Shown piece by piece: positions 26,351 through 48,526 of a DNA stretch of 64,000 nt; within the stretch, counting starts at the first letter, position 1, and each line of letters opens with the position of its first letter. Position numbers and translations under genes: made by a program. The stretch comes from Cryobacterium sp. GrIS_2_6 (lineage in GTDB: Bacteria > Actinomycetota > Actinomycetes > Actinomycetales > Microbacteriaceae). The notes under the pieces were generated by a model. It saw nothing but the letters and a program-made list of their open reading frames with translations. It did not search any database and had not been told where the DNA came from. The stretch covers positions 248,001 through 312,000 of the forward strand of contig NZ_JAXCHP010000001.1 in NCBI RefSeq assembly GCF_035984545.1, given 5' to 3'.

Positions 26351-26369
26351 AGCTCCAAGACTACGTCGG

Positions 26370-26408
26370 GAGTTATGCACAGGTCCGTTCCTTGCGCGAG
26401 TTATGCAC
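26370..26408. promoter_or_regulatory. Two DnaA-box-like direct repeats
   Basis: GAGTTATGCAC occurs twice, 28 bases apart. The first copy contains TTATGCACA, an exact match to the general DnaA box TTWTNCACA; the second ends in C, one mismatch. They lie in the divergent promoter region of the marP-like and DUF4192 genes. Confidence 0.45.
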
Positions 26409-26459
26409 CGATCCCCAGCGAGCGCACCCGGGGAGGGAACGCCCCGGGAGAGTGTCCGC

Positions 26460-29877: not shown

Positions 29878-30987
29878 ATGGGCCGAGAGTGGATGTTCGT
29901 GGCCGGCCGCTCCTTCATCGCCGCGGTCCCCGTCGACGCGCCCCGTGGTCTCGTCACGGCGCTCTCGAGCAGGGCCGGAGACGCCTGCGTCTCGGCCGAG
30001 GCGCTCGTCGGACTGTTGCCGCTCGGTGGCTCCGACGCTCTCGAGTCCTTCGCGCTCGTGATCCGTGCAGCGGCGGATGAGTCCGCCGTGACCGTCGTCG
30101 TGCGCGGACCGGTCGCCGTCGACGTGTTTTCGGTCGGCGGTTCACGACGCTTCACAGACCAGGGCATCCGGCCCTGGAACCTCGCCGATTTCTCCGCAGT
30201 GACCGGCGTCGTCATCGGTTCCCCGGACACGGCGGCGCTCGCCGCAGTGCCCGGCGGAAGCGAAACCGGGAACGCACAGGGCACAGCGGTCGGCCGGACG
30301 GTGCGCTGGTCGCCAGGCGGCCTGCCGGCCGAAACGGACGACACCGCGATGCGGCTGCCGGAGGACACCGTGATCCACAGGCCGGACGACACGGTGATCC
30401 GCGGGGCGGACGACACGGTGATCCGCGGGGCGGACGACACCGTGCTCCGAGGGGCGGACGACACCGTGCTCCGAGGGGCGGACGACACCGTGCTCCGCGG
30501 GGCGGACGACACCGTGATCCGAGGGGCGGACGACACGGTGAGCAGCCCGCAGAATGACACCGAGGACACCGCGACCGGCGCGGCCCTCCGTCCTCCACTC
30601 GCCCGGTTCCGGCTGTCCGACGGCCGTGAGTTCCCTCTCGACCGTCCATACCGGCTCGGCAGGCGCCCGGCACAGCCGCGCATCCCCGTCGGACCGAGCA
30701 TCACTCTCGTGGCCGTCGTCTCTGCCGGCTCGCTCGTGTCCGCGACCCACGTCGACATCCGGCAGGTTGGGGACGTCATCGTCGTCACTGACGCGGGCTC
30801 CCGGAACGGCACCATTGTGGTCTCCGCGGACGGGCGCAAGGAACGGCTCCGTCCCGGCGATTCCCGAACTGTGCCTCCGGGTACGAGAATAGACATCGGG
30901 GACGATAACATCATCGAGATCATCCCGGCGAGCGGCACCGAGTCGGCTCCGTATTTCCCAGCACATCGTGGAAGGCACCACCCGTGA
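29878..30987 (+). CDS. FHA-domain protein with DDTV[I/L]RGA tandem repeats
   Basis: 369 residues. The first 125 form a small alpha/beta domain (EWMFVAGRSFIAAVPVD, VVRGPVAVDVFSVGG) of unknown type. Residues about 162-225 hold eight 8-residue repeats based on DDTVIRGA. The C-terminal 120 residues are an FHA domain, with LGRRPAQPR, VSATHVDI and SRNGTIV marking the phosphothreonine pocket. No signal peptide, so it is cytoplasmic. GAAGGGAG four bases before the ATG fixes the start. It is the first gene of a cluster with a PP2C phosphatase and a Ser/Thr kinase, and the repeat threonines are plausible phosphate acceptors. Confidence 0.85.
   Translation: MGREWMFVAGRSFIAAVPVDAPRGLVTALSSRAGDACVSAEALVGLLPLGGSDALESFALVIRAAADESAVTVVVRGPVAVDVFSVGGSRRFTDQGIRPWNLADFSAVTGVVIGSPDTAALAAVPGGSETGNAQGTAVGRTVRWSPGGLPAETDDTAMRLPEDTVIHRPDDTVIRGADDTVIRGADDTVLRGADDTVLRGADDTVLRGADDTVIRGADDTVSSPQNDTEDTATGAALRPPLARFRLSDGREFPLDRPYRLGRRPAQPRIPVGPSITLVAVVSAGSLVSATHVDIRQVGDVIVVTDAGSRNGTIVVSADGRKERLRPGDSRTVPPGTRIDIGDDNIIEIIPASGTESAPYFPAHRGRHHP
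30361..30552 (+). repeat. Eight 24-bp coding repeats (Thr-rich)
   Basis: Six units encode DDTV followed by I or L and RGA; they are flanked by divergent copies EDTVIHRP and DDTVSS. DNA identity between units is high, differing mainly at GTG-ATC versus GTG-CTC and CGC versus CGA, which suggests expansion by slippage or recombination. Confidence 0.92.
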
Positions 30988-31883
30988 CCCAGATTGGTCA
31001 AGGCTCAGGCGGATTCGAGGTCGCTTTCCCCTCGGTGAAGAAAACGGTCTCGCTCGCGTGGGCCGCACTCACCGACACCGGGCATCGCCGCGAAGTCAAT
31101 GAAGACAGCCTGATCTCCGCGCCGCCCATTTTCGCGGTCGCGGACGGCATGGGCGGGCATTCCGCGGGCGACGTCGCGAGCGCGGCCGTCGTGCACCGGC
31201 TCGGCGAACTTGCCGGGCGGGACTCGCCGCAGAATGCGGCCATCAACGCGGCACTCGGCCTCGCGGTCACGGACATGGCGTCCGGTGTCGGCGTGACCGA
31301 CCTGGGCACAGGGACCACGGTGACGGGAGCGGCACTCACCCTCGTGTCCGGCGCTCCCCAGTGGGTCGTCTTCAACATCGGCGACTCCCGGGTCTACCTG
31401 CTCACCTCCGGTGTGCTCGAACAGATCACCATCGACCATTCCGTCGTGCAGGAACTCGTCGACGCCGGCCGGATCACCCGCGACGAAGCGGATGTCCATC
31501 CGCACGGCAATATCATCACCCGCGCAGTCGGGTTCCACGAGGCGCCCGTCCCCGACTACCGTGTGCTGCCTGTGCACCCGGGGATGCGCCTCCTGATCTG
31601 CTCAGACGGGTTGACCAAGGAACTCACCGCATACGGCATCCGGCATTTCCTGATCTCGAACCCGGACCCGGACGACGCGGCGAAGGCGCTCGTCGAGGCC
31701 GCGCTCGAGAACGGCGGTCGCGACAACGTGACGGTGATCGTCCTCGACGTCCTCGATATCGAAGACAGCGAAGACAGCGAAGACAGCGAAGAACGTGAAG
31801 AGGACGTGGGGACCGGCGGCCCGTCCGACTCGCAGGACGCCGACACCGGCCCGCTCGACATCGTCCATCTCGACACGAACTGA
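30984..31883 (+). CDS. PP2C-type Ser/Thr protein phosphatase
   Basis: 299 residues. Metal-binding motifs are complete: GHRREVNEDSLI, ADGMGGHSAGD, FNIGDSRVYLL, LLICSDGLTKEL and GGRDNVTVIVLD. No membrane segment follows, unlike mycobacterial PstP, so it is cytoplasmic. The tail is acidic with short repeats (DSEDSEDSEEREED). It should remove phosphate from substrates of the neighbouring kinase, including the FHA protein. The GTG start overlaps the FHA stop codon (GTGA). Confidence 0.92.
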   Translation: MTQIGQGSGGFEVAFPSVKKTVSLAWAALTDTGHRREVNEDSLISAPPIFAVADGMGGHSAGDVASAAVVHRLGELAGRDSPQNAAINAALGLAVTDMASGVGVTDLGTGTTVTGAALTLVSGAPQWVVFNIGDSRVYLLTSGVLEQITIDHSVVQELVDAGRITRDEADVHPHGNIITRAVGFHEAPVPDYRVLPVHPGMRLLICSDGLTKELTAYGIRHFLISNPDPDDAAKALVEAALENGGRDNVTVIVLDVLDIEDSEDSEDSEEREEDVGTGGPSDSQDADTGPLDIVHLDTN

Positions 31884-31891
31884 GTTCGACA

Positions 31892-31907
31892 CCCCCTGAG
31901 TTGGGGG
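31892..31907 (+). terminator. Small hairpin after the PP2C gene
   Basis: CCCCC and GGGGG pair over a six-base loop eight bases after the stop codon. No T-run; may only attenuate read-through to the kinase gene. Confidence 0.3.
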
Positions 31908-31917
31908 AGCAGCATCC

Positions 31918-31946
31918 CGGACACGTGCGGGGCAACTGCATAAACT
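31918..31946 (+). promoter_or_regulatory. Promoter of the kinase gene
   Basis: CGGACA and TAAACT are 17 bases apart. The transcript would start about 80 bases before the ATG. This divides the cluster into an FHA-PP2C unit and a kinase-led unit. Confidence 0.5.
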
Positions 31947-32033
31947 TGAGTGACGCCAGTCGTGATACCCGTTCGATGCGCGTTCACGGACCAGTTCAGG
32001 GACCATTGGCGAGAGCGAGACGGGGAGGCCGCG

Positions 32034-33572
32034 ATGCAGCGACGATTACCGTCGATGCCCCCGAACCTGCCGGGGTTCTCCTACCTCCGGGTGCTCGGCT
32101 CCGGAGGCTTCGCCGACGTCTTCCTCTACCAGCAGGACCTTCCGCGCCGACAGGTCGCGGTCAAGGTGCTCCTCGCCGAGGTCGTCAACGACCAGGTCCG
32201 GCAGCTGTTCCAGGCCGAGGCCAATCTGATGGCCTCGCTGAGCTCGCACCCGTCGATCCTGACCGTGTTCCAGGCCGGCGTCTCGGCGGACGGACGCCCG
32301 TACCTCGTGATGGAACAGTGCTCTCCCGCGCTCAGCCAGCGCTACCGCGCGGAGCCACTCGGCGTCCCTGAGGTGCTCCAGGTCGGCATCACCATCGCGA
32401 ACGCCGTCCAGGCCGCGCACCAGGCCGGCATGCTGCACAGGGACCTCAAACCCTCGAACATCCTCGTCACCCGCTACGGGCACGCCGTGCTCGGCGACTT
32501 CGGCATCGCGGCCACGGTGAGCGAAGCCAGAAACGTCGAAGCGGTCGGGCTGTCCATCCCCTGGTCCGCTCCGGAAGTCCTCCTCGACGAGGTGTCAGGC
32601 TCCGTCGCCTCCGAGGTCTGGTCCCTCGGCGCCACCCTGTACTCCTTCCTCGCCGGTCATTCGCCGTTCGAGATTCCCGGCGCCGAGAACAGCTCGGCCC
32701 ATCTCATCTCCCGCATCAACAAGGCCAGGGTCCCGGCGATCGGCCGGGCGGATGTCCCGAGCAGGCTCGAGCTCATCCTCCAGCGTGCGATGTCCCGGCG
32801 GCCAGAGTCGCGCCAGGGCAGCGTGCTCGAGCTCATCAGGGAGCTGCAGTCGGTCGAGGGCGAACTGGGTCTCCTCCCCACCCGGCTCGAAGTCGCCGAC
32901 GAGGACTGGGCCGCTGAGAACGGCGTCGACGACGACGACCGCACCCGGATCTCGGCCGTGAATTCGATCAATGCCTACCAGGAGCCGCGCCGCCGCCGCG
33001 TGAATCAGGCGCCGCGAGGGCGCCGTTCGGCGGCCGGTGCGCTCGCCGACACCTCCGGCGCGCGCAGCCCGTCCGGTTTCGACGCTTCGGCGGGGACTGC
33101 GGGCAGCGTGGGCACGGCCAGGGGCACGTCCCGCAGCACAGCCAGGGGTTCCGTGCAAGGGGGTTGGCGGCGTTCGGCGCTCGTCTGGGCTCTCGTTGCG
33201 GCATCCGTCGTCATCGTCGTACTCGCCGTCGTGACGGCGTCGGCGCTCTCGCACCAGGCGACGCCAGGGCTGCCGACCGTGAGCAACGTCTCGGGGGAGC
33301 TGCGGGACGGTATGGTCGTGTTCGGCTGGGCGGACCCCGGCATCGCCCAGGGGGACAGCTACGTGATCACCCTCCGCACCGGTGAGAGCAGCATCCAGAA
33401 GGGCACTGAGTTCAGCGTCGACCCGCACGGACAGGCCAGGGTCTGCGTAAGCGTCGCCGTGAACCGGGACGGGCGCACCGGGGGCGCGAGCGGCGAGAAG
33501 TGCGTCGACGCCGGCGGATCAGTGACCGGCAGCGCGCGCGGCGACCTGACCCGAGGCGGCGACGCTTCGTGA
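32034..33572 (+). CDS. Membrane Ser/Thr protein kinase (PknB-like) with external domain
   Basis: 512 residues. The kinase domain (about 10-275) is intact: GSGGFADVF, VAVKVL lysine, HRDLKPSN catalytic loop, GDFGIA metal site and SAPEVL. A juxtamembrane linker contains DDDDRTRISAV, a likely autophosphorylation segment. One transmembrane helix lies near 381-403 (LVWALVAASVVIVVLAVV). The outside part is a single fibronectin-like domain with two Cys, not PASTA repeats. GGGGAGG five bases before the ATG supports the start. It should sense the envelope and phosphorylate the FHA proteins of the cluster. Its stop overlaps the next start (GTGA). Confidence 0.92.
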   Translation: MQRRLPSMPPNLPGFSYLRVLGSGGFADVFLYQQDLPRRQVAVKVLLAEVVNDQVRQLFQAEANLMASLSSHPSILTVFQAGVSADGRPYLVMEQCSPALSQRYRAEPLGVPEVLQVGITIANAVQAAHQAGMLHRDLKPSNILVTRYGHAVLGDFGIAATVSEARNVEAVGLSIPWSAPEVLLDEVSGSVASEVWSLGATLYSFLAGHSPFEIPGAENSSAHLISRINKARVPAIGRADVPSRLELILQRAMSRRPESRQGSVLELIRELQSVEGELGLLPTRLEVADEDWAAENGVDDDDRTRISAVNSINAYQEPRRRRVNQAPRGRRSAAGALADTSGARSPSGFDASAGTAGSVGTARGTSRSTARGSVQGGWRRSALVWALVAASVVIVVLAVVTASALSHQATPGLPTVSNVSGELRDGMVVFGWADPGIAQGDSYVITLRTGESSIQKGTEFSVDPHGQARVCVSVAVNRDGRTGGASGEKCVDAGGSVTGSARGDLTRGGDAS

Positions 33573-36500
33573 TCCGTCTCTGGGTCTCCCGCCAGTTCGC
33601 TGCGCACCGCTCGGCGTGGGCGACGGCCCTCGGCGGAACGCTCGTCCTCGCCCTCGTCGTGACGACCGCTGTCGTGTCCGGCGGATACACCGCCCAGCGT
33701 CTTGACCTCGGCGATGCCGCCGTCTGGGTCACCAACGAGACCCGCCAGGCTGTCGGCCGGGCGAACACGGCGGTGATGGAGCTCAACACGGTCGTGACGA
33801 GCGAGAGCTCAAATCTCGACGTGCTCCAGTCCGGAGCGACGGTCCTCGTGCTCGACACCGGCAACAGCTCCCTCGATATCCTGGACCCGGCCACGGCAAC
33901 CATCGTGCGCAGCGTGGCACTGCCGCCCCGGGCGCCCGCCGTGTTCCTCGCTGGAACCCGCACCCTGATCGCCTCGAACGGCGAGGTCTGGGAGACCCCG
34001 ACGAGCCGGCTCGCGAGTTTCGACACGGCGACCGCGCCGACGCTCTCCCTCGGCGCCGGCTCGGTCGTGAGCGTCGACGACACCGGAACCCTGGTCTCAT
34101 TCACGCCCGCGACGGGCGCCCTCGCCCAGGCGCCCTCCGGAAGCGGAACGGTCACCTCGAGCCAGACGCTCAACGCCGGATCGCCGGGCGACGATTACCA
34201 GCTGACGAGCGTGAACGGCGCCTGGGCGCTGCTCAACGCGACCTCGCGGCACCTGTTCCTCGATGGCAGGGACGTCGACCTGTCCGGGTTGATCATCGAC
34301 GGCACCGCCCCCGCCCTGCAGCAGCCGAGTCTCTCCGGCTCCCGGGTGCTGATCGCCCACGAGCGGGGGCTCGTCGCCGTCCCACTCTCCGGCGGCGCCC
34401 CGACCGTGCTCGTCAGCGGCCGGAACGGTACCGCGGCGGCCCCGGACACCGCCGGACAGTGCGCCTATGCTGCCTGGTCGGACGGAACGGTCTGGCGCGA
34501 CTGCGGCGACGCCGGGTCAGGCGGCTCGGCGTCTGGAGCGTCCGGAGGCTCCCGTGGAACGCAATCCGGCACGACGACGACCCTCACCGGGCTCAACGGC
34601 AACGCCAGACTCGCCTTCCGGCGCAACGGCACCGGGCTCGTGCTGAACGATGCGCACAACGGTTCCACCTGGGCGGTCCAGCGCGACAATCAGCTGATCG
34701 ACAACTGGGCCGACCTGATCGACACGGCCCCGGACACCCAGCGCATCGAGACCAACGGCGACGACACCCCTCCGGTCTACGACAAGGTGCAGGCCCCGCC
34801 CGTGGCCGTGGACGACTCCTTCGGAGCCCGGCCCGGCCGGATCGTGACCCTCCCTGTGCTCCTCAACGACTCCGATCCCAACGGGGACGTGCTCGTGATC
34901 GAATCGGTCACACCGATCGACGCGACCGACGGCCGGCTTGAACTCGTCGGCAACAACCAGCAGGTGCAGCTCACCGTCGCGGAGGCGGCAACCGGTCAGA
35001 TCCGCTTCGGGTACACGATCAATGACGGCCGTGGCGGGAGCGCATCCGCAACCGTCACCGTCACTCTCCGGGCGCCGGGGGAGAACTCCGCTCCCGAGCA
35101 GGTTCGAACCACCCACGCGACCGTGCGGGCAGGCGGCCGGGTGACAAGCCAGGTGCTCGGCGACTGGATCGACCCCGACGGCGACCCGGTCTACCTCGCC
35201 GCAGCGTCCGCCGCCGGCCCCGACCTGCTGAGCTTCACCCCCGCAGGCGCCGTCGTGTTCACGGATGCCGGCATGAACGCCGACGACAAACGGGTCGGCC
35301 TGAGCGTCTCCGACGGCCGTCTGCTCGGCACGGGCTCGCTCACCGTCTCCGTGCGCGCGAGCGGCGCCGTGCCGATCGTCGCGGACTCCTTCATCGTGCT
35401 CGCGACTGCGGGGGCCGAGGTCTCGGTGTCCCCGCTCGACCACGCCCGCGGCGGGTCGGCGCCGCTGCGACTTTCGAGCGTCCCTGCCAAGCCGGATGCC
35501 ACGATCACCCCCGACTTCGCCTCCGGTGCGTTCCGGTTCCTGAGCAGCACGCCGGGGGTCCACGAGATCGAGTACTCGGTCACCGACGGGCAGCTCACCG
35601 CGACGGGAAGGGTGCGCGTCGACGTCGCTCCCGCCGCCGACGCCAACAGCACCCCCGTCACCGTTCCCCACACGGCCTTCATCCGTGGCCAGCAGGCCAC
35701 CCTCGTCGACGTGCTCGCGACCGACTTCGACCCTGCGAACGGGGTGCTGCTGGTCACAGGGACGATGAACGTGCCGGCGTCGAGCGGTATGCGGATCGAG
35801 ATCCTCGACCAGCGGATCCTCCGGGTCACCCTGACCCGTCCGCTGCCGGACGGCGGGCTCAGCTTCGGGTATCGGATCAGCAATGGGCTCGCCGATGCCG
35901 AAGGCACCGTCACCGTCGTCGAAATCCCCGCGCTCGGTCAGAAACAGGCCCCGATCGCCGTTGCGGACACCGCGACCGTCCGGGTCGGCGACACCATCGA
36001 CATCCCGGTCCTCGCGAACGACGAACAGCCGGACGGTGACTCGCTGACCCTGGACCCTGTCCTCGCCTCCGGCCTGCCAGCCGGAGCAGGCCTGCTCTTC
36101 GCCGCGGGCACCGTGCTGCGTTACCTCGCGCCGACCACTCCCGGCACGTACTCCGCGGTGTACCGGGTGAATGCCCCCGACGGCCAGTATGCCAACGCGG
36201 AGGTGCGCATCTCGGTGCGCGAAGCCGACCCGAGCACCAACAATCCTCCCGTCCCGAAGACGGTGACCGCGCGGGTGCTCTCCGGCGGCACCGTCGAAGT
36301 GTCGATCCCGCTGACCGGGATCGACCCTGACGGCGACTCGGTCCAGCTCGTCGGCCAGGAGACCAACCCGGAGAAGGGATCCGTCACCGCGGACGGGACG
36401 GACACGTTCCGATACCAGGCCGGGGAATACTCCGCAGGGACCGACACGTTCAGCTACGCCGTCGTCGATGCCCTCGGCGCTCGGGCGATCGGCACCGTGC

Positions 36501-39500
36501 GGATCGGGATCAGCCCGCGCCTCGACGGCGCCCGCAACCCTGTCGCGGCCCCCGACGACGTCGTGGTGCGTCCGGGAAGCACCGTCTCCGTGCACGTGCT
36601 CGCGAACGACTCGGACCCCGACGGCGGCCGGCTCACGATCAGCGGCGTCGAACCGAGCGGCACCCCGGCCGACCTCGCGGCCGACCACGGCACGGCCATG
36701 ATCGCCGGGGACACCATCGCGGTCACGGCGCCCGCGACACCCGGCCGGTTCGGCTTCATCTACGAGATCAGCAACGAGCGCGGCGGCACCAGCTCGACTT
36801 TCCTCACCGTCGTCGTGCGTGCGGATGCCCCGCGTGCCAGGCCAGAGGCCAGGGACACCCACTTGACCCTCTCCGACGTGCTCGCGGGCGGCACCGTCGA
36901 CGTCGACGTTCTCGCAAACGTGACCTTCGCCGACGGGCCGGCGCGCGGCCTGGCGCTGAGCGTCCCCGAGTCCTGGGCCGACTCCGCGAGGGTCACAGAC
37001 GCCAAGCGCGTCCGGGTGACCGTGCACGCCACGAGCCAGATCATCCCGTTCCAGGTCGCGAACCCCGACGACGCGAGCATCACCGCCCTCGCGTTCATCT
37101 GGGTGCCGGGGTACACCGACGCCCTGCCGCAACTGCGGAAGGGTGTTCCCGCGCTCACTGTCGCGAGCGGCGCTAACCTCACCATCCCGATCAACGACTA
37201 CGTCGTCGCCGTCGGCGGCAAGCAGGTGCGCCTCACCGACCGGAGCCTCGTGCACGCCACCCGGTCCAACGGTGCAGACCTCGCCACCTCGGACACGAGC
37301 ATCGCCTTCACGAGCGCGGACCAGTACTACGGTCCGGCCTCGGTGTCGTTCGTCGTCACTGACGGCACCGGCGCAGGAGACCCGGCCGGCCACACTGCCA
37401 CGATCGTGCTCCCGATCACGGTGACGCCGCAGGCGAACCAGCCACCGGCCTTCGACGGCGCCGTACTCGACTTCGAACCCGACCAGACCAAGGTCATCGA
37501 CCTGTCCAAACTGACCTCCTACCCGTACCCGAACGACCAGGCCTCCCTCGTGTACGCGGTGCTCGACCCGAAACCGGCCGGATTCGACTACTCCCTCGAT
37601 GGCCAGCAGCTGACCCTGCACGCCAGGACAACGACGCTGCCTGCCTCGGGTGGGCAGGGCGGCCACGGGTCCATCACGATCGGCGTCTCGGCCGGCGGTA
37701 CGCCCGGCCGGGCCGGGCGCATCGAGATGAGTGTCGTCGCGTCGACCCGGCCGCTTGCCATTCCGGCGGCGGATGTCGCGATCGCCCCCCGCGCCCAGAC
37801 GACCGTCGTCGACGTGCTCGCCAACGACGGCGCGGCCAACCCGTTCCCACAGGTCCCGCTCCGGGTCGTCGCCGTGCGCGGACTCGGCGGTGCCGGGATC
37901 CCCGCCGGAGTCAGGATCACCCCGAGCGCCGACAACAGCACACTCAGCGTGCAGGTCGCAGCGAACGCCGCCGCGGCGGACACGAACCTCGAGTACGAGG
38001 TCGCCGACGCGACGAACGACCCGAACCGGTACGCCTGGGGCACCGTGCGGATCTCGGTTCAGGACCGGCCGGACCCGGTGACGAGCCTCTCCGTGACCGG
38101 GTTCTCGGACACCCGTCTCGCGGTCGCCTTCAACCCCGGCGCCGCGAACAACTCCGCCGTCACCGGCTACGAGATCACCCTCGTGACTGCCGTGACGGGC
38201 GCAGCGATCAGCACCACCACCTGCCAGGCGACCTCGTGCACGGTTCCGACCGGCGGTAACGGGCGGGCCAACGCGGTCCGGGTCTCGGTCGCAGCGCGCA
38301 ACGGCCTCGGCCTCGGCGCGACGACCGCGCTCGCGGACACCGTCTGGTCCGATGTCGTGCCGGCGGCGCCCGGGAATCTCACGGCCGCGCCGCTCAACGG
38401 TGGCCTGACGATCAGCTGGGCACCCGTTCCGAACGGTGCGGGTTCCCCGATCGCGGACTACCTGGTCACAGTCAACGGCACGACCCAGCCCGCCGTGAGC
38501 GCGACGGGTCCTGGCTGCGGGACCACCCGGTGCTCGCTCACGGTGAACGGCCTCGCCAACGGCACTGACGTTCCGGTGAGCGTGAGCGCCCGTAATGAGT
38601 CATATCCCGCCCTCTCGGCGTGGACATCCGCTTCGACCCAGGGCACGCCATACGGTGCGCCGACAGCCGGCGCGGTCTCCGCATCGGCCGGTGCCGCCGG
38701 CACCGTCCACGTCGCATGGGATGCCTTCTCCGGTTCCGGCGACCCCGTCGGCGGGTACTACGTGCAACGTCTCACGAACGGTACGGTGCCGACGGGGAAC
38801 CAGGCGTGCACGGTCACGTCCCCGGCCCCCGGCACCGTCGTCGTCCCCCACACGGGCGCGAACGTCGCCGAGATCAAGGCTCTCGGAGCAGGCGCCACGA
38901 GCGTCGACTTCACCGGGCTCACCTCGGACACCGCGTCATACTCCTTCGTGGTCTGGGGATACAACAGGGCCGGCTGCAGTAACAGCCAGGTCACCACCGT
39001 TCAGGTGCAGTCGACTCCCGGCGCGGTCACCGACCCGGGAGCCTCGATGGGGATGCACGACACGGCGTACGACCTGCAGATCACGCCGGTGAGCCCGGGC
39101 GCCGGCGTCACGGGCTATGAAGTCCGGGCCGTCGACGCCGCGACGGGGACCCCCGGCGCGAGCACGACCTTCACCGGGACCGCCCTGCCACGCCAGCTGC
39201 TGAGCCCGACGGTCTTCGGCGCACCGTTCAGCTACCAGGTGCGCGCGTGTGACACCACGGCCACCTGGGGCACCTGTGGGGCCTGGTCTGCGACGATGAC
39301 GGCACCGGCGGCATCCGTCAGCCTCGCCGTGACCGGCCTGGCCTACGACCCGGCAACAGGCGTATTCGGCTGGACGAACGGCCCGAACAACGGCAGCCAC
39401 ACCACCGGATACAGCTGTTCGGTGCCGACGGACCCGGGTGCGGCGCCCGTGCCTGGCGGCCCAACGAGCTGCACTCTCGCCGCTCCTGCAGCAGCAGGCA

Positions 39501-39571: not shown

Positions 39572-39622
39572 GATCGATGAGACTGTTGAGACTGTTCCGA
39601 TGAAGACCCGAAAGACACTGAG

Positions 39623-40657: not shown

Positions 40658-42036
40658 GCGATCTGGGCGGCGCAGGTCCGAACGGCGTCGGCGAGGACTC
40701 CGCCGACGGTCGTCTCGCCGTGCTGCTCGTGCGTTCGGTCGGTGCGGTCCTGGCGACCGGTGCGCTGCTGACGAGGACCTGGCGGCTCGCCACTGCCGTC
40801 GTCACGATCCTCGGCTGGAGCGTGCTCGCATCCGCCGCCGTCGCCCTCGCGACCGGGTACCGGCTCGGCTGGACCGAACTCGTGGTGCTGGGCTGGACTG
40901 GGCTCGCGCTCGTCCTGGCTTCATTCGGCTTCCTCTTCGGGCGGACCGCGTACCAGATTCGGCTCAGGGTTCCCGTGGACCGGGTCGTCGTGGGGGAACG
41001 GGTTCCCGGTGAACTGATCGTGCGCAACCCGACCGGCCGCCGGCTGCCTGGCGTCGGGGTCGAGGTTCCCGTCGGCCTCGGCCTCGCCGAGTTCGCCATG
41101 CCCGGGCTCGCGAGGGGTGCAAGCTTCGAGGACGTCTTCATCGTCCCGACCGTGCGGCGCGGGATCATCCCGATCGGGCCGGTGCGGACGGTGCGCGCAG
41201 ACCCGGTCGGCCTCGTGCGCCGGGAACTCGTCTGGGCGGAACGGGTCGACCTCTTCGTGCATCCGCGCACCCTCCCGATTCCGAGTATGAGCACGGGGTT
41301 CATCCGTGACCTCGAGGGAAACCCCACCCGTGACCTCACCAACCTCGACATCTCGTTCCACGCCCTGCGGGAGTACGTTCCGGGGGATGAACGGCGCAGC
41401 ATCCACTGGAAGAGCACCGCGAAGACCGGCCGCCTCATGGTGCGCCAGTACGAGGCGTCCCGGCGCAGTCACCTCCTGGTCGCACTGAGCCTCGCCGCAG
41501 ACGACTACGCAGACGACGAGGAATTCGAACTCGCCGTGAGCGTCGCGGGCTCGCTCGGGGTGCGGGCGATCCGCGACGCACGCACGGTGTCCGTCGTCAC
41601 GAGCGCCATTGCACCCGGCGCCGGCCGCCCGGGTGCGGCCGGCCGGGACCAGGGGCAGCACCGGCCGAACCGGGCAGGCACGAAGCGGCGGCGCCCCGCC
41701 GCCGAAAGGCTCAGCACCCTGACGATCACCCGCCTGCTCGACGACCTGTGCCGTGTGGATCGCACGGCGGATGCGCTGCCGCTCGGCGCACTCGCGCAGT
41801 CCGCAGCGGACACCGTCGCCGGTATTTCGGTCGTCTTCCTCGTGTACGGCTCAACGGTGAGCCTCGCCGAGCTGCGCGCAGCGGCGACCCACTTCCCCGG
41901 CGGGGTCGAAGTCGTGGCCGTCGTCTGCGCGACAGAGTCTGTGCCGAGCCTCCGGCGCGTCGCCGAGCTCAGCGTGCTCACCATCGGCTTCCTCGAAGAC
42001 CTGCAGCACAGCCTCGCCAAGGGGGTTGCCGCGTGA
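40654..42036 (+). CDS. DUF58 domain membrane protein
   Basis: 460 residues. Two transmembrane helices near 45-90 are followed by a beta-rich domain and the DUF58 signature: FHALREYVPGDERRSIHWKSTAKTG (split here as FHALREYVPGDE and RRSIHWKSTAKTG), then MVRQYE. An inserted Arg-rich loop (about 325-350) is extra. DUF58 proteins partner with MoxR in envelope-related assembly. The GTG start overlaps the moxR stop (GTGA). The next gene overlaps in the same way. Confidence 0.9.
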   Translation: MSDLGGAGPNGVGEDSADGRLAVLLVRSVGAVLATGALLTRTWRLATAVVTILGWSVLASAAVALATGYRLGWTELVVLGWTGLALVLASFGFLFGRTAYQIRLRVPVDRVVVGERVPGELIVRNPTGRRLPGVGVEVPVGLGLAEFAMPGLARGASFEDVFIVPTVRRGIIPIGPVRTVRADPVGLVRRELVWAERVDLFVHPRTLPIPSMSTGFIRDLEGNPTRDLTNLDISFHALREYVPGDERRSIHWKSTAKTGRLMVRQYEASRRSHLLVALSLAADDYADDEEFELAVSVAGSLGVRAIRDARTVSVVTSAIAPGAGRPGAAGRDQGQHRPNRAGTKRRRPAAERLSTLTITRLLDDLCRVDRTADALPLGALAQSAADTVAGISVVFLVYGSTVSLAELRAAATHFPGGVEVVAVVCATESVPSLRRVAELSVLTIGFLEDLQHSLAKGVAA

Positions 42037-44420
42037 CCGGGAGAGTGAAGCCCCGCGCATCCGCCGCCTTCGTCGTCGGGAACACGGCGGCGCTGCTGCT
42101 CGCGACGATGGTCGCGGCCGTGACTCTCTGGCCGGTTTACGGGAACCGCGAATTCGTGGTGCTCGTCGTCGTCACCGCGTTGCTCGGTTCGGGAATTGCG
42201 ATCGTCGGTATGGTGTTCCGCTGGCGGGCGTGGCTGGTCTCGCTCGTCACGATCGCGGTGTATTTCCTGGTCGGAGTGCCGCTTGCGATCCCGGGCGAGG
42301 CGACCAGGGGCGTCCTGCCGACCCTCGCCGGGCTCGGAGACCTCGCCGCGGCGACCGCACTGAGCTGGAAGGAGCTCGTCACGATCGTGCTCCCCGTCGG
42401 CTCGTACCAGGCCCTGTTGGTTCCGGCTCTCATCCTCGTCCTGTCGAGCACCGTCGCCGGACTCTCGATCGCCCTCAGGGCACGGGTCGGCGAGCTCGGC
42501 GCACTCGGACCGATCGCGCTCTACGTCGCCGGGATCGGCCTCGGACCGACCGTCGGATTCGCGCCGATCGAGACCGGTCTCGCTCTCTTCGTCGTGCTGC
42601 TGTTCTGGCTGCTCTGGCAACGCGCGGCACGCCGGCGGGCGCTGCTCGGCCTCTCCGGTGCCCGGCAGTCCGCGCGCACCCGCGAATCGCGGGCCGGTCG
42701 CCGGCTCACCGCGGCCCGCGGGGTGCTCTCGGCCGCGCTGATCGCCGCCCTCGCGATCGGGGTCGGTACCGCGGCGGCCATGGCCTTCCCTGTGCAGGTG
42801 CCCCGGGATGTCGTGCGGGCCCGCGTGCAGCAGCCCTTCGACCCGAATGATTACCCGAGCCCGCTGAGTGAATTCCGCAGTTACCTGCAGCCCGGGCGGT
42901 CCGATGCCGTGATGCTGTCGGTGACCGGCCTGCCGGCCGGGGGACGGTTGCGACTCGCGGCCCTCGATTCCTACAACGGAATCGTCTATTCCCTCGATGG
43001 GGCAGCGAACTTCTTCACCCGACTTCCCGACCGGCTCGACCAGAGCGGGGTCTCCGGCGACCCCTCGTCGATCGACGTGACCATCGACGATTACGCGGGC
43101 GTCTGGGTCCCGGGTACCGGGCAACTCGAACGCATCCGCTTCAGCGGGGAGACCGGCACGGCCCGGGCCGATGCGTTCTACTACAACGACGGCACGGGGA
43201 CCGCTGCCGTCCTCGGGGGACTCGCCTCCGGCGACACCTACACGGCCACCGCGGTCGTGCCACTGGTTCCCGGGTCGCTCGCGACGCTCACGCCGGGCAC
43301 GGCCGCCCTCCCGGCACTCGAGGCGCTGCCCGACTCCGTCGAAGGGGCGCTCGCGGGATACGTTCGCGCCGGGGACCCGCCCGGCGTGCAATTGCAGGCC
43401 ATGCTGGACGGGTTGAAGGCGGATGGTTACGTGAGTCACGGCATCGGTGAGGACGAGCCGGTGAGCCGGTCGGGCCACGGTCTGGACCGGATCAGTCAGC
43501 TTTTCACCGATAAGCCCATGCTCGGGGACGCCGAACAGTACGCCGTCGCGGCCGCGCTGTTGGCGCGGCGGCTGGGGTTTCCAGCCAGGGTCGTCATGGG
43601 ATTCGTCCCCGAGCCGCTCGGATCCGCCGACGCGTCGGAAACGCCGGTGATCGTGCACGGGGCCGACGTATCCGCCTGGATCGAGGTCCAGACGGCAACG
43701 GAGGGCTGGGTGACGATCGACCCCACTCCCGCCGTGCGCGACGTGCCGGAGAAACAGCCGGACCGGCCCCAGATCGTCTCGCGACCGCAGACCGTCGTGC
43801 CGCCGCTGGTTCCGAGTGTGACGGAGCAGCGGGATCCCGCCTCTCCCGAGAATGCCGCGGAGACACCGCCGGCACCGCTGTCGCCGTTGCTGGCGCTGCT
43901 CGTCACCGTGCTGACGATCACCGGTTGGACGCTGCTCGCCGCCCTCGTCATCGCCGGCCCGTTCCTCGTCGTGATCCTCGCTAAGGCCCGTCGGCGCAGG
44001 CTCCGCCGCGGAAGGGGCTCAACGCTCGACCGGGTGCGCGGCGGCTGGCGCGAATACGCGGACACCGCGGTGGACTTCGGCATCGATGTGCCGGTCGGCG
44101 CGACCCGCCTCGAACTGGCCGAGGCGGTCGGCGGGGAGCCGCCTGTTGCGGCGGCGGTCGCGGTGGACCGGGCTGTTTTCGCGCCGGGGCGGCCGAGCGA
44201 CGGCGTCGCTGACCAGATCTGGAGAATGGTCGAAGACCTGCGGTCCGCGCTCGCCGCGGGACGCACCCGCAGGGACCGGTTCCGAGCCCTCATTTCGCTG
44301 CGCTCGTTCGCTCGCTACGCTGGAAGGGCATCCGTTCCACCTGCGAATCGGGGCACGCCGAGCGGGGACCGGGTTTCCAAACCCGGCCGGGACCGGCGAA
44401 AGGAAGGAGTCGTTTCGTGA
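42033..44420 (+). CDS. Transglutaminase-like membrane protein lacking catalytic Cys and His
   Basis: 795 residues. Five to six transmembrane helices (about 10-220), an external transglutaminase-like domain (about 260-620), another helix (about 630-660) and a cytoplasmic DUF4129-type tail. In active enzymes the Cys lies in a GxCEQ-like motif; here the motif reads LGDAEQYA (Ala at about 500). The usual His of HAW is Ser (DVSAWIEV, about 547), while the Asp of TIDPTP remains (about 563). The fold is kept but cross-linking chemistry is not expected. MoxR-DUF58-transglutaminase is a common trio. GTG start overlaps the DUF58 stop. Confidence 0.88.
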   Translation: MTGRVKPRASAAFVVGNTAALLLATMVAAVTLWPVYGNREFVVLVVVTALLGSGIAIVGMVFRWRAWLVSLVTIAVYFLVGVPLAIPGEATRGVLPTLAGLGDLAAATALSWKELVTIVLPVGSYQALLVPALILVLSSTVAGLSIALRARVGELGALGPIALYVAGIGLGPTVGFAPIETGLALFVVLLFWLLWQRAARRRALLGLSGARQSARTRESRAGRRLTAARGVLSAALIAALAIGVGTAAAMAFPVQVPRDVVRARVQQPFDPNDYPSPLSEFRSYLQPGRSDAVMLSVTGLPAGGRLRLAALDSYNGIVYSLDGAANFFTRLPDRLDQSGVSGDPSSIDVTIDDYAGVWVPGTGQLERIRFSGETGTARADAFYYNDGTGTAAVLGGLASGDTYTATAVVPLVPGSLATLTPGTAALPALEALPDSVEGALAGYVRAGDPPGVQLQAMLDGLKADGYVSHGIGEDEPVSRSGHGLDRISQLFTDKPMLGDAEQYAVAAALLARRLGFPARVVMGFVPEPLGSADASETPVIVHGADVSAWIEVQTATEGWVTIDPTPAVRDVPEKQPDRPQIVSRPQTVVPPLVPSVTEQRDPASPENAAETPPAPLSPLLALLVTVLTITGWTLLAALVIAGPFLVVILAKARRRRLRRGRGSTLDRVRGGWREYADTAVDFGIDVPVGATRLELAEAVGGEPPVAAAVAVDRAVFAPGRPSDGVADQIWRMVEDLRSALAAGRTRRDRFRALISLRSFARYAGRASVPPANRGTPSGDRVSKPGRDRRKEGVVS

Positions 44421-45166
44421 ATTGCCTGATCTGCGGGGCGCCGCTGAGCGCGGGCGCCATGTTCTGCGGTGAGTGCGGCAGTTCGACGAAGGCGACCCCG
44501 AAGACCCGCAAGCGTCACGACCCGCGTCCGAACGACACGACGATCATCCAGCCGCTGCGACCCCGCCCGACCGTTGTCTCGATTCCGGTGACCACCGCTG
44601 CGGCCGGTCCCGGCGTGCTCGGCAAGCCTGGGGTGTCCGCCCCGCCCGTTGCCGTACCGTCACCCGAACCCGAACCCGAACCCGAAGCCGAAGCCGAAGC
44701 CGAAACCGAGATCGAATCGTCGTCGCCGTTCGCACCGGGCCGTCGCCTGCACCCCGTTACTCCCACGCGTCCGTCCAGGCAGGGCGCGCATACCCACGCT
44801 TCCCACGTCGCCCTCACCGGTGGTGGAGCCCCGACAGCGGTCGGCGCCTTCGTGCTGCAGTTCAGCACAGGGGAGGACCTCGAAGTGTGCGGCACCGGAC
44901 TGATCGGACGCCGGCCGATGCCGCAACCGAGCGAGCACTTCGACCGTCTTGTGCAGATCATCGATCCGGGCATGTCGGTGTCGAAGACCCACCTCGAGTT
45001 CGGCCAACATGACGGCGAGCTCTGGGTCAACGACCGCTTCTCCGGCAACGGCACCGTCATCCGCCGCCCCGACGCGACGATGGTGCGGTGCGAGCCCGGG
45101 CGCCGATATCTCGTGCCGCGCGGATCGCGCGTCGAGATCGGTGACCAGTACTTCCAAGTCAGCTGA
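44417..45166 (+). CDS. Zinc-ribbon FHA-domain protein
   Basis: 249 residues. The N-terminus has a CxxC-x13-CxxC zinc ribbon (NCLICGAPLSAGAMFCGECG). A linker follows with NDTTIIQP and an EPEPEPEAEAEAE stretch. The C-terminal FHA domain (about 150-245) keeps LIGRRPMP, SVSKTHLEF and FSGNGTVI. It is cytoplasmic and presumably docks phosphothreonine on the kinase, the repeat protein or the FtsK-like ATPase. Firmicute EssC secretion ATPases carry FHA domains on the same chain; here the unit is separate but next to the ATPase gene. GTG start overlaps the previous stop. Confidence 0.88.
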   Translation: MNCLICGAPLSAGAMFCGECGSSTKATPKTRKRHDPRPNDTTIIQPLRPRPTVVSIPVTTAAAGPGVLGKPGVSAPPVAVPSPEPEPEPEAEAEAETEIESSSPFAPGRRLHPVTPTRPSRQGAHTHASHVALTGGGAPTAVGAFVLQFSTGEDLEVCGTGLIGRRPMPQPSEHFDRLVQIIDPGMSVSKTHLEFGQHDGELWVNDRFSGNGTVIRRPDATMVRCEPGRRYLVPRGSRVEIGDQYFQVS

Positions 45167-45310
45167 GACATCGACCTGTCCGGCCAGTCCGGCCAGTCCG
45201 GCCTCTTCGGCCTGTCCTCGACGCTCCTCACCACCCCGGCCATCCCGCCCCCGGCGCACGGATGCGGTCGGCCGCCTGTCCTGATCCCGTTCCGGTGCTC
45301 TGCTACCCGG

Positions 45311-48300
45311 GTGACCGACTTCTTCCTCGCCGACGAACCGCTGTCGCTGCCCGCGTCCCCGACGGAACCCGCTCCCGCCGCGTTCCCCTTGATCGCCTCC
45401 CTGGCGCCCCTCGTGGCGGCCGGCGTGATCTGGCTCCTGACCGGTTCGGCGTTCGTGCTGCTGTTCGCGGTGCTCGGCCCGGTGATCGCCGTGGCGAGCG
45501 TGGTCGATGGGCGCCGAGCCGCACGCCGCACCCGCCGCCGCGATGCCGCCGCGCACTCCGCGGCTCTCGCCGAGCTACGGAACGCGGTCACCGAGCGCCA
45601 CACAGAGCTGCGGCTACGGCGTCGGCAGGAGACCCCGTCCGCGTCACAGCTCCTCGAGACGCCGGACCGGGCATCCCGCTGGAGATCTCGGGCCGGAGGC
45701 GCAGTATCCGTGGTTCTGGGATCGGGTAGCACGGCGAGCGGTATCCGTCTCGAGGGAACCGGCTCGGAGCGGGAGCTGCGCGACTGGGCCGCCACGCTCC
45801 TGGATGCACCCATCACAGCGGATGCCTCTGGCGGCGTCGCGCTCGTCGGGCCCACGGCCCTCGTGCGCGCGTTCGCCCGGGCGCTGCTCGTGCAGCTTGC
45901 ATTCGCCCTGACACCCGACCGTTTCGCCCTGGAACCGGTCGCTTCGGACCGACCGGACGACGACTGGGCGTGGACCAGGGCCCTGCCGCACACGACCCGT
46001 GCAGGCGTCGCGGCTGACGCGGGTCCCGCGGAGGCCGCTGGGCCCGCGGACCGCAGAAGCCCCGCGGAGGCAGCCCGGAAGGTCGTCCTGCTTCGGTTCA
46101 CCGACATGCCGGTCGAAGGCAACCACGCTCCCACCGTCGAACCTCGACAGGGACACCCGCGGGTGCCGTGGTTGCTGCTGGCCACGGACCTCGTCGACGT
46201 GCCGCCCGGCTGCGCGACGGTCGTGCGTCTTCACAGTGCAACCCGGGCGGAGGTGCTCTTCCTTGCGGAATCCGAGCACCCAGAGAGCCCCGGGAGCTCC
46301 GCGGTTCATGGGTCTCGTCGGGGGTCGTCCCAGCGCCCGGACTTCCGGCCGGAGTTCGTCACGAGGGAACAGGCGATCGGCTTCGCCCGGCTGCTCCGAG
46401 AGCGTGCTGCAACGGCGGGTCTTCTCGGTGGGCATGGTTCGCTGCCCGCCCGGGTGACGCGCGCCGAGCTGGCCGCGATCGCCGGGCATCCGCTCGCCGC
46501 GGTGGCGGCGGACTGGGACGGTCTCGCGTGCGCGATCGGTGTCGGCGCCGACGGGCCGGTCACGCTCGACCTCGTCGGCCAGGGTCCGCACGCCGTTGTC
46601 GGCGGCACGACCGGGAGCGGCAAGAGCGAACTGCTGGTCAGCTGGGTCAGCCAGATCGCCGCGGATCGCCCGCCGGACGACGTCACCTTCCTGCTCATCG
46701 ACTTCAAGGGCGGCGCCGCGTTTCGCCCGCTCGCTGTTCTCCCGCACTGTGTCGGGCTGGTCACCGACCTCGACGGGCGCCGGGCGGAGCGCGCCCTCGC
46801 GAGCCTCGGCGCAGAACTTCGTCACCGCGAACGGGTGCTCGCCGCGGCGGGTGCGAGGGACCTCGCCGAATGGCGTTCGCTCGACGGGCCGGCGTCGCCG
46901 AAGAGGCCCGCGTTGCCGCGGCTCGTGATCGTCGTCGACGAGTTCGCGACCATGCTCGCGTCGTTTCCGGAACTGCACGCGCTCTTCGTCGACATTGCGG
47001 CCAGGGGACGCTCGCTCGGCGTGCACCTCGTGCTGTGCACGCAGCGCCCGGCCGGAGTCGTGCGGGACGCCCTGCTCGCAAACTGCACCCTCCGGATCTC
47101 CCTGCGCGTCAACAACGCGGCGGACAGCCAGGCCGTGCTGGGGACGGACGCCGCAGCCGCCATCGCCGCCGCCGTTCCCGGTCGCTGCCTGATCGCGCTG
47201 GGGGACGGCGACCCAGAGGCCTGCCAGGTCGCCGTCACCTCGGGCGCGGAGATCGAGGCCCTGGCTGCGGTCGCGGGCTCAACCGTGGACGGAGGAGTCG
47301 TGCCGCCGCGGCACCCTCGCCGACCGTGGCTCGATCCGCTCCCTCCTCGGGTGGCCCTCGCCGACCTCGACGGGCTTCAGGACCTCGACAGGCCCGAGTC
47401 GGAGGCACATGCGCCGGACCGAACCCCGGCCGTGGAACACGAATTCCGCGTCGGACTGGTCGACGAGCCGGACCGGCAACGGTACAGCGTGGCCCGGTAC
47501 GGTCCCGGGGACGGGAACATGTTCGTCCTCGGGGGAGCACGGAGCGGCAAGACCTCGGTGCTCAGCGTTTTCGCGTCCCAGGCACGCGCCGCGCACTCGT
47601 GGGTCGGTTGGCCGAATCCCGAAGTCGAAGCGGTCTGGGACGCCCTCACCGAGGCGCGCGACTGGATCGACCGGGGAGGCGCGGGCCGGGTTCGCACCGA
47701 CCAGGCCGGTGCAGGCCCGGCCCGCCGCGCCAGCTCGAGGCTCCTGCTCCTCGACGATTTCGATTCGGTCTGCGCCCGCTGGGAGCCCGACCACCGGCAG
47801 GCGGCGCTCGAATGCCTCGCGAGCCTGCTTCGCGACGGACTCCCGGTCGGACTGCGCGTCGTCATCACGGCGCAACGCGTCAACGGGCCGCTTCAGAACC
47901 TGGCGGCGCTGTGCCAGGAACACCTGTTGCTTCGGCTGCCCGATCGCGCCGAACACCTCGCCGCCGGGGGACAGGCAGCCCAGTTCGATCCAACCCTCCC
48001 TCCCGGCGGCGGACACTGGCGTGGACGGCGCATTCAGGTGCTCGCTCCGCAATCTCTTGTCCCGGACACAGCTGCATCCCCTGTCGCCGGTAGGCCGGAC
48101 CGCGCAGTCCCCGGCCCTGACGTGCGCCCGACCGCGACCGTACTCGTTCTCTCCGCGGGCACATCGATCATCCACGTGAGCGGGTCCCCGGCCCGCTCCG
48201 CCGCTCACTTTCGAGCGGATGCCGCGCACCCGGACGTTGTGGAGCTGACCGCCGGTGCCGGTCCCGCGAACTCGGAGGCAGTCCTGGTCCGGCGTGGCGC

Positions 48301-48526
48301 GGCGACCGTCTTCATCGGGGATCCCGAGACCTGGCAGGCCAACTGGTCGCTCCTGGCCGCGCTTCGGGTGCGCGCACCCATCGTCTTCGACGGCTGCACC
48401 CTCGCCGACTACCGCATGCTGACCCGCAGGCGAGATCTTCCGCCACCCCTGGCACCCGGCCGCGGTCATCTCTGGTCCCTGTCGCCCGAAGGCGCCCTCG
48501 CCCGGGTGGTCTTCGAGGCGGCGTGA
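45311..48526 (+). CDS. EccC/FtsK-SpoIIIE-like ATPase with two ATPase domains
   Basis: 1071 residues. Two adjacent transmembrane helices (about 26-62), then a soluble region and two ATPase domains. Domain 1 has Walker A VVGGTTGSGKSELL (near 435), LLIDFKGGAAF and Walker B IVVDEFATM. Domain 2 has GGARSGKTS (near 741) and LLLLDDFDSV, where the usual catalytic Glu is Asp. The plan matches type VII secretion motor proteins (EccC/EssC) more than DNA-translocating FtsK, which has a gamma domain and four helices. It probably drives protein export. No WXG100 substrate or EccB/D gene is in view. The GTG start lacks a strong ribosome site; the preceding 144-base gap holds only GGCCAGTCC repeats. Confidence 0.87.
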   Translation: MTDFFLADEPLSLPASPTEPAPAAFPLIASLAPLVAAGVIWLLTGSAFVLLFAVLGPVIAVASVVDGRRAARRTRRRDAAAHSAALAELRNAVTERHTELRLRRRQETPSASQLLETPDRASRWRSRAGGAVSVVLGSGSTASGIRLEGTGSERELRDWAATLLDAPITADASGGVALVGPTALVRAFARALLVQLAFALTPDRFALEPVASDRPDDDWAWTRALPHTTRAGVAADAGPAEAAGPADRRSPAEAARKVVLLRFTDMPVEGNHAPTVEPRQGHPRVPWLLLATDLVDVPPGCATVVRLHSATRAEVLFLAESEHPESPGSSAVHGSRRGSSQRPDFRPEFVTREQAIGFARLLRERAATAGLLGGHGSLPARVTRAELAAIAGHPLAAVAADWDGLACAIGVGADGPVTLDLVGQGPHAVVGGTTGSGKSELLVSWVSQIAADRPPDDVTFLLIDFKGGAAFRPLAVLPHCVGLVTDLDGRRAERALASLGAELRHRERVLAAAGARDLAEWRSLDGPASPKRPALPRLVIVVDEFATMLASFPELHALFVDIAARGRSLGVHLVLCTQRPAGVVRDALLANCTLRISLRVNNAADSQAVLGTDAAAAIAAAVPGRCLIALGDGDPEACQVAVTSGAEIEALAAVAGSTVDGGVVPPRHPRRPWLDPLPPRVALADLDGLQDLDRPESEAHAPDRTPAVEHEFRVGLVDEPDRQRYSVARYGPGDGNMFVLGGARSGKTSVLSVFASQARAAHSWVGWPNPEVEAVWDALTEARDWIDRGGAGRVRTDQAGAGPARRASSRLLLLDDFDSVCARWEPDHRQAALECLASLLRDGLPVGLRVVITAQRVNGPLQNLAALCQEHLLLRLPDRAEHLAAGGQAAQFDPTLPPGGGHWRGRRIQVLAPQSLVPDTAASPVAGRPDRAVPGPDVRPTATVLVLSAGTSIIHVSGSPARSAAHFRADAAHPDVVELTAGAGPANSEAVLVRRGAATVFIGDPETWQANWSLLAALRVRAPIVFDGCTLADYRMLTRRRDLPPPLAPGRGHLWSLSPEGALARVVFEAA

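Follow-up and report, generated by a model that had tools for sequence, protein, structure and literature searches.

A 64,000-nucleotide stretch of the genome of Cryobacterium sp. GrIS_2_6 (positions 248,001 to 312,000 of contig NZ_JAXCHP010000001.1; hereafter, the window) contains a cluster of nine genes that is an enlarged locus of the PFNA type, named for an operon of Bifidobacterium. As judged by sequence comparison, the middle five genes of the cluster are homologous to the core genes of the PFNA operon and are in the same order, and the PFNA block is not confined to bifidobacteria. The cluster is made of two separable modules: this five-gene block, and a unit of FHA and PP2C genes with a short ATPase of the EccC type. 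The nine genes occupy positions 29878-48526 of the window, all on the + strand, in the following order (each Pfam domain is above its cut-off):

29878..30987, + strand: FHA_A, an FHA protein of 369 amino acids (Pfam FHA)
30984..31883, + strand: PP2C-type Ser/Thr phosphatase, 299 amino acids (Pfam PP2C)
31950..33572, + strand: membrane Ser/Thr kinase, 540 amino acids (Pfam Pkinase)
33569..39571, + strand: giant envelope protein with an N-terminal hydrophobic helix, 2000 amino acids (Pfam Big_9, 7 stretches, and fn3, 2 stretches)
39623..40657, + strand: MoxR-type AAA+ ATPase, 344 amino acids (Pfam AAA_3 and AAA_lid_2)
40654..42036, + strand: DUF58 membrane protein, 460 amino acids (Pfam DUF58)
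42033..44420, + strand: polytopic membrane protein with a transglutaminase fold, 795 amino acids (Pfam Transglut_core)
44417..45166, + strand: zinc-ribbon and FHA protein, 249 amino acids (Pfam FHA)
45311..48526, + strand: short EccC-type ATPase, 1071 amino acids (Pfam FtsK_SpoIIIE)

An original prediction, made from the DNA alone, had listed these nine codirectional genes, and their coordinates, strand, and Pfam domains confirm it. The four-base GTGA overlaps that it reported at five gene junctions are also present; the remaining gaps are of 66, 51, and 144 bases. We placed the starts of the giant and the transglutaminase at 33569 and 42033 because GTGA overlaps the preceding gene's stop there.

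In the passages of the PFNA literature covered here, the operon of Bifidobacterium is given as pkb2, fn3, aaa-atp, duf58, tgm, prpC, a hypothetical gene, and fha, which are co-transcribed in B. longum, and Pkb2 phosphorylates the operon's MoxR protein in that species (PMC8430577). The operon has been described as a sensor of host immune signals, with a proposed cytokine-binding role in bifidobacteria, and as unique to these bacteria; a search for orthologs elsewhere is reported to have had no success (PMC6803598). The window has the order pkb2-fn3-aaa-atp-duf58-tgm on one strand, as do loci L257-L259. In Bifidobacterium callitrichidarum (G440), the locus reads kinase-giant-MoxR-DUF58-transglutaminase-PP2C, and its giant is 30% identical to ours over 1684 columns (499 bits), while its MoxR is 57% identical. 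DUF58 is 31% identical and the transglutaminase 29% identical (228 bits) to their Bifidobacterium counterparts; the kinases are alike by profile only (305 bits). A homolog of the transglutaminase was found in 14 of 17 genomes of the Bifidobacteriaceae. The PFNA giant likewise carries Ig repeats and two fibronectin type III (FN3) domains, and PP2C and FHA genes also belong to the operon. In the window, however, PP2C and an FHA gene lie upstream of the block, and a second FHA gene and the EccC-type ATPase lie downstream, whereas no EccC-type ATPase is described for PFNA in the passages covered. Nor was there an EccC match near the blocks of Bifidobacteriaceae, in nine stretches from 8 genomes.

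Related blocks occur in Cryobacterium, Agreia, Herbiconiux, Microbacterium, Agrococcus, Arthrobacter, Micrococcus, Oerskovia, Promicromonospora, and Isoptericola. Homology to PFNA would suit a cluster for host recognition, that is, an adhesin or cytokine receptor of the kind proposed for bifidobacteria. However, genera such as Cryobacterium, Agreia, Herbiconiux, Microbacterium, Arthrobacter, and Promicromonospora live mostly in soil or water or on plants, and loss of the block in host-free lineages was not seen, which makes host recognition a very improbable role.

The evidence for two modules comes from 60 loci of short EccC proteins: one from each of 20 of the genus's 36 other species, and 40 chosen by hand from a listing of the family (40 genomes, 38 genera). 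This sample leans towards better matches, and the gene profiles were built from the genus. The order FHA-PP2C-kinase-giant-MoxR-DUF58-transglutaminase-zinc-ribbon FHA-EccC recurs in most of the full loci and in many genera of the Microbacteriaceae, so the genes do co-occur in relatives, as the original prediction expected. The five-gene block was complete in 40 loci and missing from 19, and one locus had two of the five genes. Contig ends cut three of the loci (L037 and L070, without the block, and L036, with the partial block). The other 57 are informative: 40 have the full block, 17 have no block, and none has part of it. What the reduced loci lack is exactly the five core PFNA genes. FHA_A, PP2C, and the zinc-ribbon FHA gene were found in 35, 38, and 38 of the 40 full loci, respectively; FHA_A was found in 4 and PP2C in 14 of the 19 loci without the block. 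Because the outer genes are often missing from loci that lack the block, the outer unit is looser than the block.

In a tree built from 58 short EccC proteins (a quick method, no bootstrap), 11 changes of block state are needed, and at least 6 of these changes are forced by well supported branches, although some are moves elsewhere in the genome rather than losses. When we searched the 17 genomes with reduced loci for the first 610 residues of the giant, 15 had a match elsewhere; the exceptions were G010, which is a draft of 150 contigs, and G155. All 8 genomes with full loci that were searched in the same way had a match. The copies that lie elsewhere in G206, G166, and G136 group with the window type (moderate support). 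Thus, EccC stays in place while the five genes move or disappear together. A match to the EccC-like protein was found in all 36 other species of the genus (E of 6e-130 or better). The same search of 23 genomes of other families reached 292 bits at best, mostly with longer ATPases. At a threshold of E = 0.001, 198 of 199 genomes of the family had a match, but these matches include FtsK and do not measure the presence of the short form.

The giant has four recognizable parts, as follows:

33599..33676, + strand: N-terminal helix, residues 11-36 (hydropathy and an AlphaFold2 model with a predicted local distance difference test score, or pLDDT, of about 50 there)
33719..34702, + strand: membrane-proximal beta-propeller, residues 51-378 (AlphaFold2, pLDDT mostly >90)
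34793..38068, + strand: Ig/cadherin-like repeat array, limits approximate (Pfam Big_9 in 7 stretches, Cadherin_4 in 5, and Cadherin_5 in 4)
38366..38602, + strand: the better matching of two FN3 stretches (Pfam fn3)

The N-terminal helix is probably a membrane anchor, and hydropathy did not identify a C-terminal transmembrane helix. The propeller's best matches in Foldseek were the YVTN surface-layer protein 1l0q (E of 2.2e-11, template modeling or TM score of 0.39) and BamB; scores against both propellers were below 0.5 by query length. Giants of the window type have a mean length of 1975 amino acids, with a standard deviation of 24 (40 loci). We also compiled a named set of 80 loci, which were found through transglutaminases with the pattern GDxEQ (x free), ranked by likeness to the transglutaminase of L097, and examined with 10 kb of flank; giants from these loci are 2029 amino acids long, with a standard deviation of 12 (n = 65). 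A near-constant length would suit a part that spans the cell wall rather than a free adhesin.

The original prediction took the EccC-like motor and the rest of the cluster to exist in order to assemble or export this giant. The tight, operon-like spacing of the genes and their conserved order are consistent with that idea, and related giants also adjoin EssC-like ATPases. However, EccC is kept where the block is absent (17 of 57 informative loci), which argues against it existing only to export the giant, and G010 and G155 have no giant match at all. Conversely, the block occurs without EccC nearby in the Bifidobacteriaceae. The repeated changes of block state on the EccC tree point the same way, even if some are moves. 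Also, the hydrophobic N-terminal helix of the giant points to insertion by a Sec-type route. We therefore set this purpose aside as improbable.

The last gene of the cluster encodes a member of the EccC/EssC ATPase family: it has an N-terminal pair of transmembrane helices and tandem FtsK-type ATPase domains, with the motifs of domain 1 kept and those of domain 2 kept in part. It shares the helix pair, the tandem domains, and the Walker A and B motifs of domain 1 with the ATPases of type VII secretion (4nh0, 4lya, and EccC5 of ESX-5). Across short forms, TGSGKS of domain 1 is kept in 56 of 61. The NCBIfam models for EssC and EccC match the protein, all below their equivalog cut-offs. In Foldseek, the best match of its AlphaFold2 model (pLDDT of 80, predicted TM score of 0.66) was EccC of Thermomonospora curvata (4nh0; 883 columns, E of 1.9e-34). 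With TM scores of only 0.44 and 0.54, the two proteins differ in how their domains are arranged. Unlike the type VII proteins, it is only 1071 amino acids long, no Walker consensus was seen in its last domain, and on a tree of ATPase domain 1 (84 rows, quick method) it falls apart from the 22 long forms. On this tree, all 61 short forms fall to the same side of one branch (support of 89), and they adjoin a 1279-amino-acid form from another family. Pfam found an FHA domain in 14 of 21 long ATPases and none in the short form, yet an FHA gene precedes the short form. Among the matches listed from 248 genomes of the order, ATPases of 1155-1327 amino acids outside the family that matched over a long stretch were seen for family f14. 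ATPases of this intermediate length were seen at L154 (in G049) and in the f14 genomes G261, G276, G291, G332, G346, G414, and G425; L154, the one such locus that we examined, has no block gene.

As the original prediction stated, this is not a canonical type VII locus. There is no WXG100, EccB, EccD, or mycosin gene among the nine, and so none of the set that goes with EccC in type VIIa (ESX) systems, which is EccB, EccD, mycosin, and the Esx pair; for EccD and mycosin, the search covered the locus. Block genes do occur, whole or in part, beside long EssC-like ATPases (L095/L096, L097, L106, L140, L144, L150, and L151). At L095/L096, giant-MoxR-DUF58-transglutaminase-PP2C-FHA-kinase are followed by a 1743-amino-acid ATPase, in which Pfam matched no FHA domain, and by three WXG100-like genes, one of them over the NCBIfam cut-off. 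L097/L098 have a similar order and end in an FHA-bearing ATPase and a WXG100-like gene (27.0 bits versus a Pfam cut-off of 27.3 bits). In the named set of 80 loci, a giant was found in 69, a kinase in 66, and an EccC match in 39. When 20 long-ATPase loci were chosen by the ATPase match alone (L135-L154), 4 had block genes (L140, L144, L150, and L151). No mycosin motif was found in 25 long-ATPase loci with a motif rule, which is a weak search. A hydropathy rule for EccD, which is similarly weak, identified polytopic neighbors other than transglutaminases near the long ATPases of L098 and L154.

The genome itself (4.34 Mb in two contigs) has no second EccC-like gene other than FtsK, and the genome search for WXG100 gave a single match, about 3.8 Mb away from the cluster along the contig, or about 0.4 Mb if the contig is circular. 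These searches revealed no separate ESX locus that could own the ATPase. A genome-wide search for EccB had 0 matches, but its controls were silent too. The lone WXG100 gene (G000:C1:4121772, at L001; minus strand, L033:9758-10024) stands beside mtrAB-like genes, and it has the same neighbors in the genus loci examined and, in other families, at 5 of the 6 loci. It encodes a conserved orphan Esx protein. If the short EccC secreted this protein, then the genome would hold a type VII system with scattered parts. The single EccC-like match and single WXG100 match in this genome would fit, as would the presence of a WXG100 match in each of the 36 other species sampled from the genus. However, WXG100 matches, linked to mtrAB or not, also occur in genomes whose EccC matches do not exceed the FtsK level (such as G072, G150, G153, G211, and G214) and in G098, which has no EccC match at all. 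Conversely, an EccC match, of either the short or the long form, occurs without WXG100 in G110 and G179. Given also the synteny with mtrAB-like genes across families, we did not accept the orphan as the partner of this ATPase, and we consider a scattered type VII system quite unlikely.

A parallel in function may be type VII secretion system d (T7SSd), which comprises TsdA, C, D, H, and I (Garrett, Higginson and Palmer 2024, PMC11217815). According to the part of that paper covered here, T7SSd shares with our locus an EccC/EssC-type ATPase, a transmembrane kinase (TsdD), a giant Ig-domain envelope protein, and the idea of phospho-Thr control through FHA. However, TsdA is a WXG100 protein encoded in the locus, whereas our cluster has none among its nine genes; TsdC carries an N-terminal FHA domain, whereas our ATPase is shorter and has no FHA; and TsdI has a Sec signal and a C-terminal transmembrane helix, whereas our giant has Ig domains with an N-terminal helix and no C-terminal one. 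Because of these differences in WXG100, FHA, and topology, the locus is not a member of T7SSd, but by analogy it may work like one. MoxR and the transglutaminase fold are present here, and the words MoxR, transglutaminase, and fibronectin are absent from that paper. Likewise, "type VII secretion" is absent from the PFNA literature in which we searched for the words, which is no proof that no paper links the two.

The original prediction was right about the transglutaminase fold: the profile's match in the Protein Data Bank is 6g49, of the TgpA type, and operons of MoxR, DUF58, and a TgpA-type transglutaminase have the same three neighbors as this locus. It needs correction in that the catalytic Cys and His are lost:

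43530-43532, + strand: Ala500, in place of the catalytic Cys
43671-43673, + strand: Ser547, in place of the catalytic His

We take the motif of an active enzyme to be a Cys-His-Asp triad, anchored by the in-genome paralogs L235 and L237. None of the 54 aligned sequences with a letter at the first position has Cys (25 have Ala, 10 Gln, 7 Glu, 7 Asp, and 5 Gly; one further sequence has a gap), His is kept in 4 of 54, and Asp in 48 of 54. In the named set of 80, the Cys position is Asp in 79 and Gly in one, and, among the 59 for which we read the motif, 58 retain His. The block transglutaminase of Bifidobacterium reads GDSEQYA, likewise without Cys; another transglutaminase in the genome of the window reads GYCVHFA at the catalytic place. 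Unlike the TgpA-type operons, then, the blocks have no Cys at the catalytic position, and their transglutaminase is probably a pseudo-enzyme.

The cluster encodes a full set for phosphorylation signaling, as originally described, and the motifs of the kinase, PP2C, and FHA proteins are intact here and in almost every ortholog, as judged by loose patterns. The kinase has a transmembrane helix near residue 406, and its HRD[LIVM]KPxN-type loop is kept in 38 of 39 sequences. Its small ectodomain has two invariant Cys and looks FN3-like in the alignment, although Pfam assigned it no domain; a search with the ectodomain found 24 proteins, including one from Cryobacterium breve that is 89% identical. 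All four metal-site patterns of PP2C are kept in 52 of 52 sequences. In the zinc-ribbon FHA protein, the FHA patterns are kept in 49 of 49 sequences and CxxC..CxxC in 47 of 49; the zinc-ribbon matches in Pfam are below cut-off. FHA_A has its FHA domain at residues 259-341 and a linker rich in Thr motifs:

about 30355-30543, + strand: eight acidic-D-T-V units with 8-residue spacing in the FHA_A linker

Such a run of eight is peculiar to the FHA_A of the window; orthologs mostly carry between one and seven motifs, and in a few the motif is absent. Still, [DE]T[VIL] occurs 109 times in 40 FHA_A sequences, as compared with 26.6 +/- 4.7 times in shuffles, and no such excess was found in five control proteins (PP2C, MoxR, DUF58, transglutaminase, and EccC).

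Signaling could also be the whole purpose of the cluster: the rod-like giant and the kinase would sense the cell wall to regulate growth, and the EccC-like protein would be a scaffold or a non-secretory translocase. Besides the full signaling set, the lost catalytic residues of the transglutaminase and the lack of a Walker consensus in the last part of the ATPase point to scaffolding. However, ATPase domain 1 keeps its Walker A motif in most short forms, the protein that it best matches in fold is a type VII ATPase, and the EccC match is kept throughout the sampled species of the genus. We consider a pure wall sensor unlikely, but less so than a dedicated exporter of the giant.

Instead, we propose that the cluster encodes an envelope-spanning, phosphorylation-controlled machine of two modules with an EccC-type motor, a proposal whose chances we see as even. 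The PFNA-type block would supply the transmembrane kinase with its small ectodomain, the 2000-residue giant as a rod (membrane helix, membrane-proximal propeller, Ig repeats, and FN3 domains), and the trio of MoxR, DUF58, and the pseudo-transglutaminase; the second module would be the FHA/PP2C unit with the short ATPase. Sec would insert the rod, which would cross the cell wall at a nearly fixed length, and the trio would assemble or remodel it, with the transglutaminase fold perhaps serving as a scaffold. The kinase ectodomain would sense the rod or the wall, and the kinase would phosphorylate the Thr motifs of the FHA_A linker and, as is reported for Bifidobacterium, MoxR. Docking of FHA_A and of the zinc-ribbon FHA protein on phospho-Thr would gate the motor, which has no FHA domain of its own, unlike many of its longer relatives. 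PP2C would reset the switch. The motor would probably move a substrate that is encoded elsewhere, and the rod would be a conduit or a wall scaffold. More tentatively, and as a possibility rather than an expectation, the PFNA block would form the half that spans the wall in a class of type VII-like secretion machines of actinobacteria, with the rod as conduit or tether and the trio as assembly chaperone; here, the motor's FHA domain would be in a separate gene, and the locus would have no WXG100 partner.

Several observations weigh against the proposed machine. First, the modules are often apart: besides the 17 informative EccC loci without the block, in 16 of the 20 long-ATPase loci, the 13-20 kb examined contained no block genes. 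The block and type VII-like ATPases thus frequently occur separately. Just 9 of the 19 loci without the block have the zinc-ribbon FHA gene. Second, there is no room inside the nine-gene locus for a small cargo open reading frame or substrate gene, as the largest gap is 144 bases. Third, the Walker A motif of EccC domain 2 fits only 42 of 61 short forms. Fourth, the length of the giant is looser in the Bifidobacteriaceae (1776-2162 amino acids, n = 8), and 19 other giant paralogs range from 1749 to 2055. Finally, enrichment of Thr motifs in the zinc-ribbon FHA protein was rejected (20 occurrences versus 18.3 +/- 4.6 in shuffles).

Finding a PFNA-type block in a putative operon with a secretion-type motor suggests a general envelope function for the block, rather than a main role in reading host immune signals. 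It also joins two literatures that, in word searches of the parts covered, do not use each other's terms: the one on the PFNA operon, and the one on non-canonical type VII systems that include Ig giants, kinases, and FHA domains. If the proposed machine is real, then tractable, harmless actinobacteria would be the place to study the PFNA genes, as components of an envelope or secretion machine; it should not be taken for granted that the block transglutaminase is an enzyme; and the full and reduced loci within Cryobacterium would offer natural comparisons. If the rod is a conduit, then the cytokine-binding role in bifidobacteria would be a late side use.

Some blocks had unusual settings. At L108, L109, and L110, kinase-giant-MoxR-DUF58-transglutaminase blocks occur without EccC in the fetched stretch, and they form a separate lineage on the tree of giants. 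Two or three tandem giant genes occur in G149 (L099/L100), L101, and L113, in blocks of the type VII-associated lineage. A 4848-base contig of Stenotrophomonas maltophilia P13 (L186) carries actinobacterial block genes and is probably assembly contamination.

Upstream of the cluster, on the minus strand, are an Lrp/AsnC regulator and a class III aminotransferase; downstream are a solute-binding protein, an ABC ATPase, and a permease, presumably of the polyamine type. Because other genes lie on both flanks, the limits of the cluster stand as originally placed. A DUF4192 gene lies near the cluster (26334-27686 of the window), and another immediately precedes the reduced PP2C-EccC unit in a different genus (L060:13558-14790), so the chromosomal place may be partly conserved.

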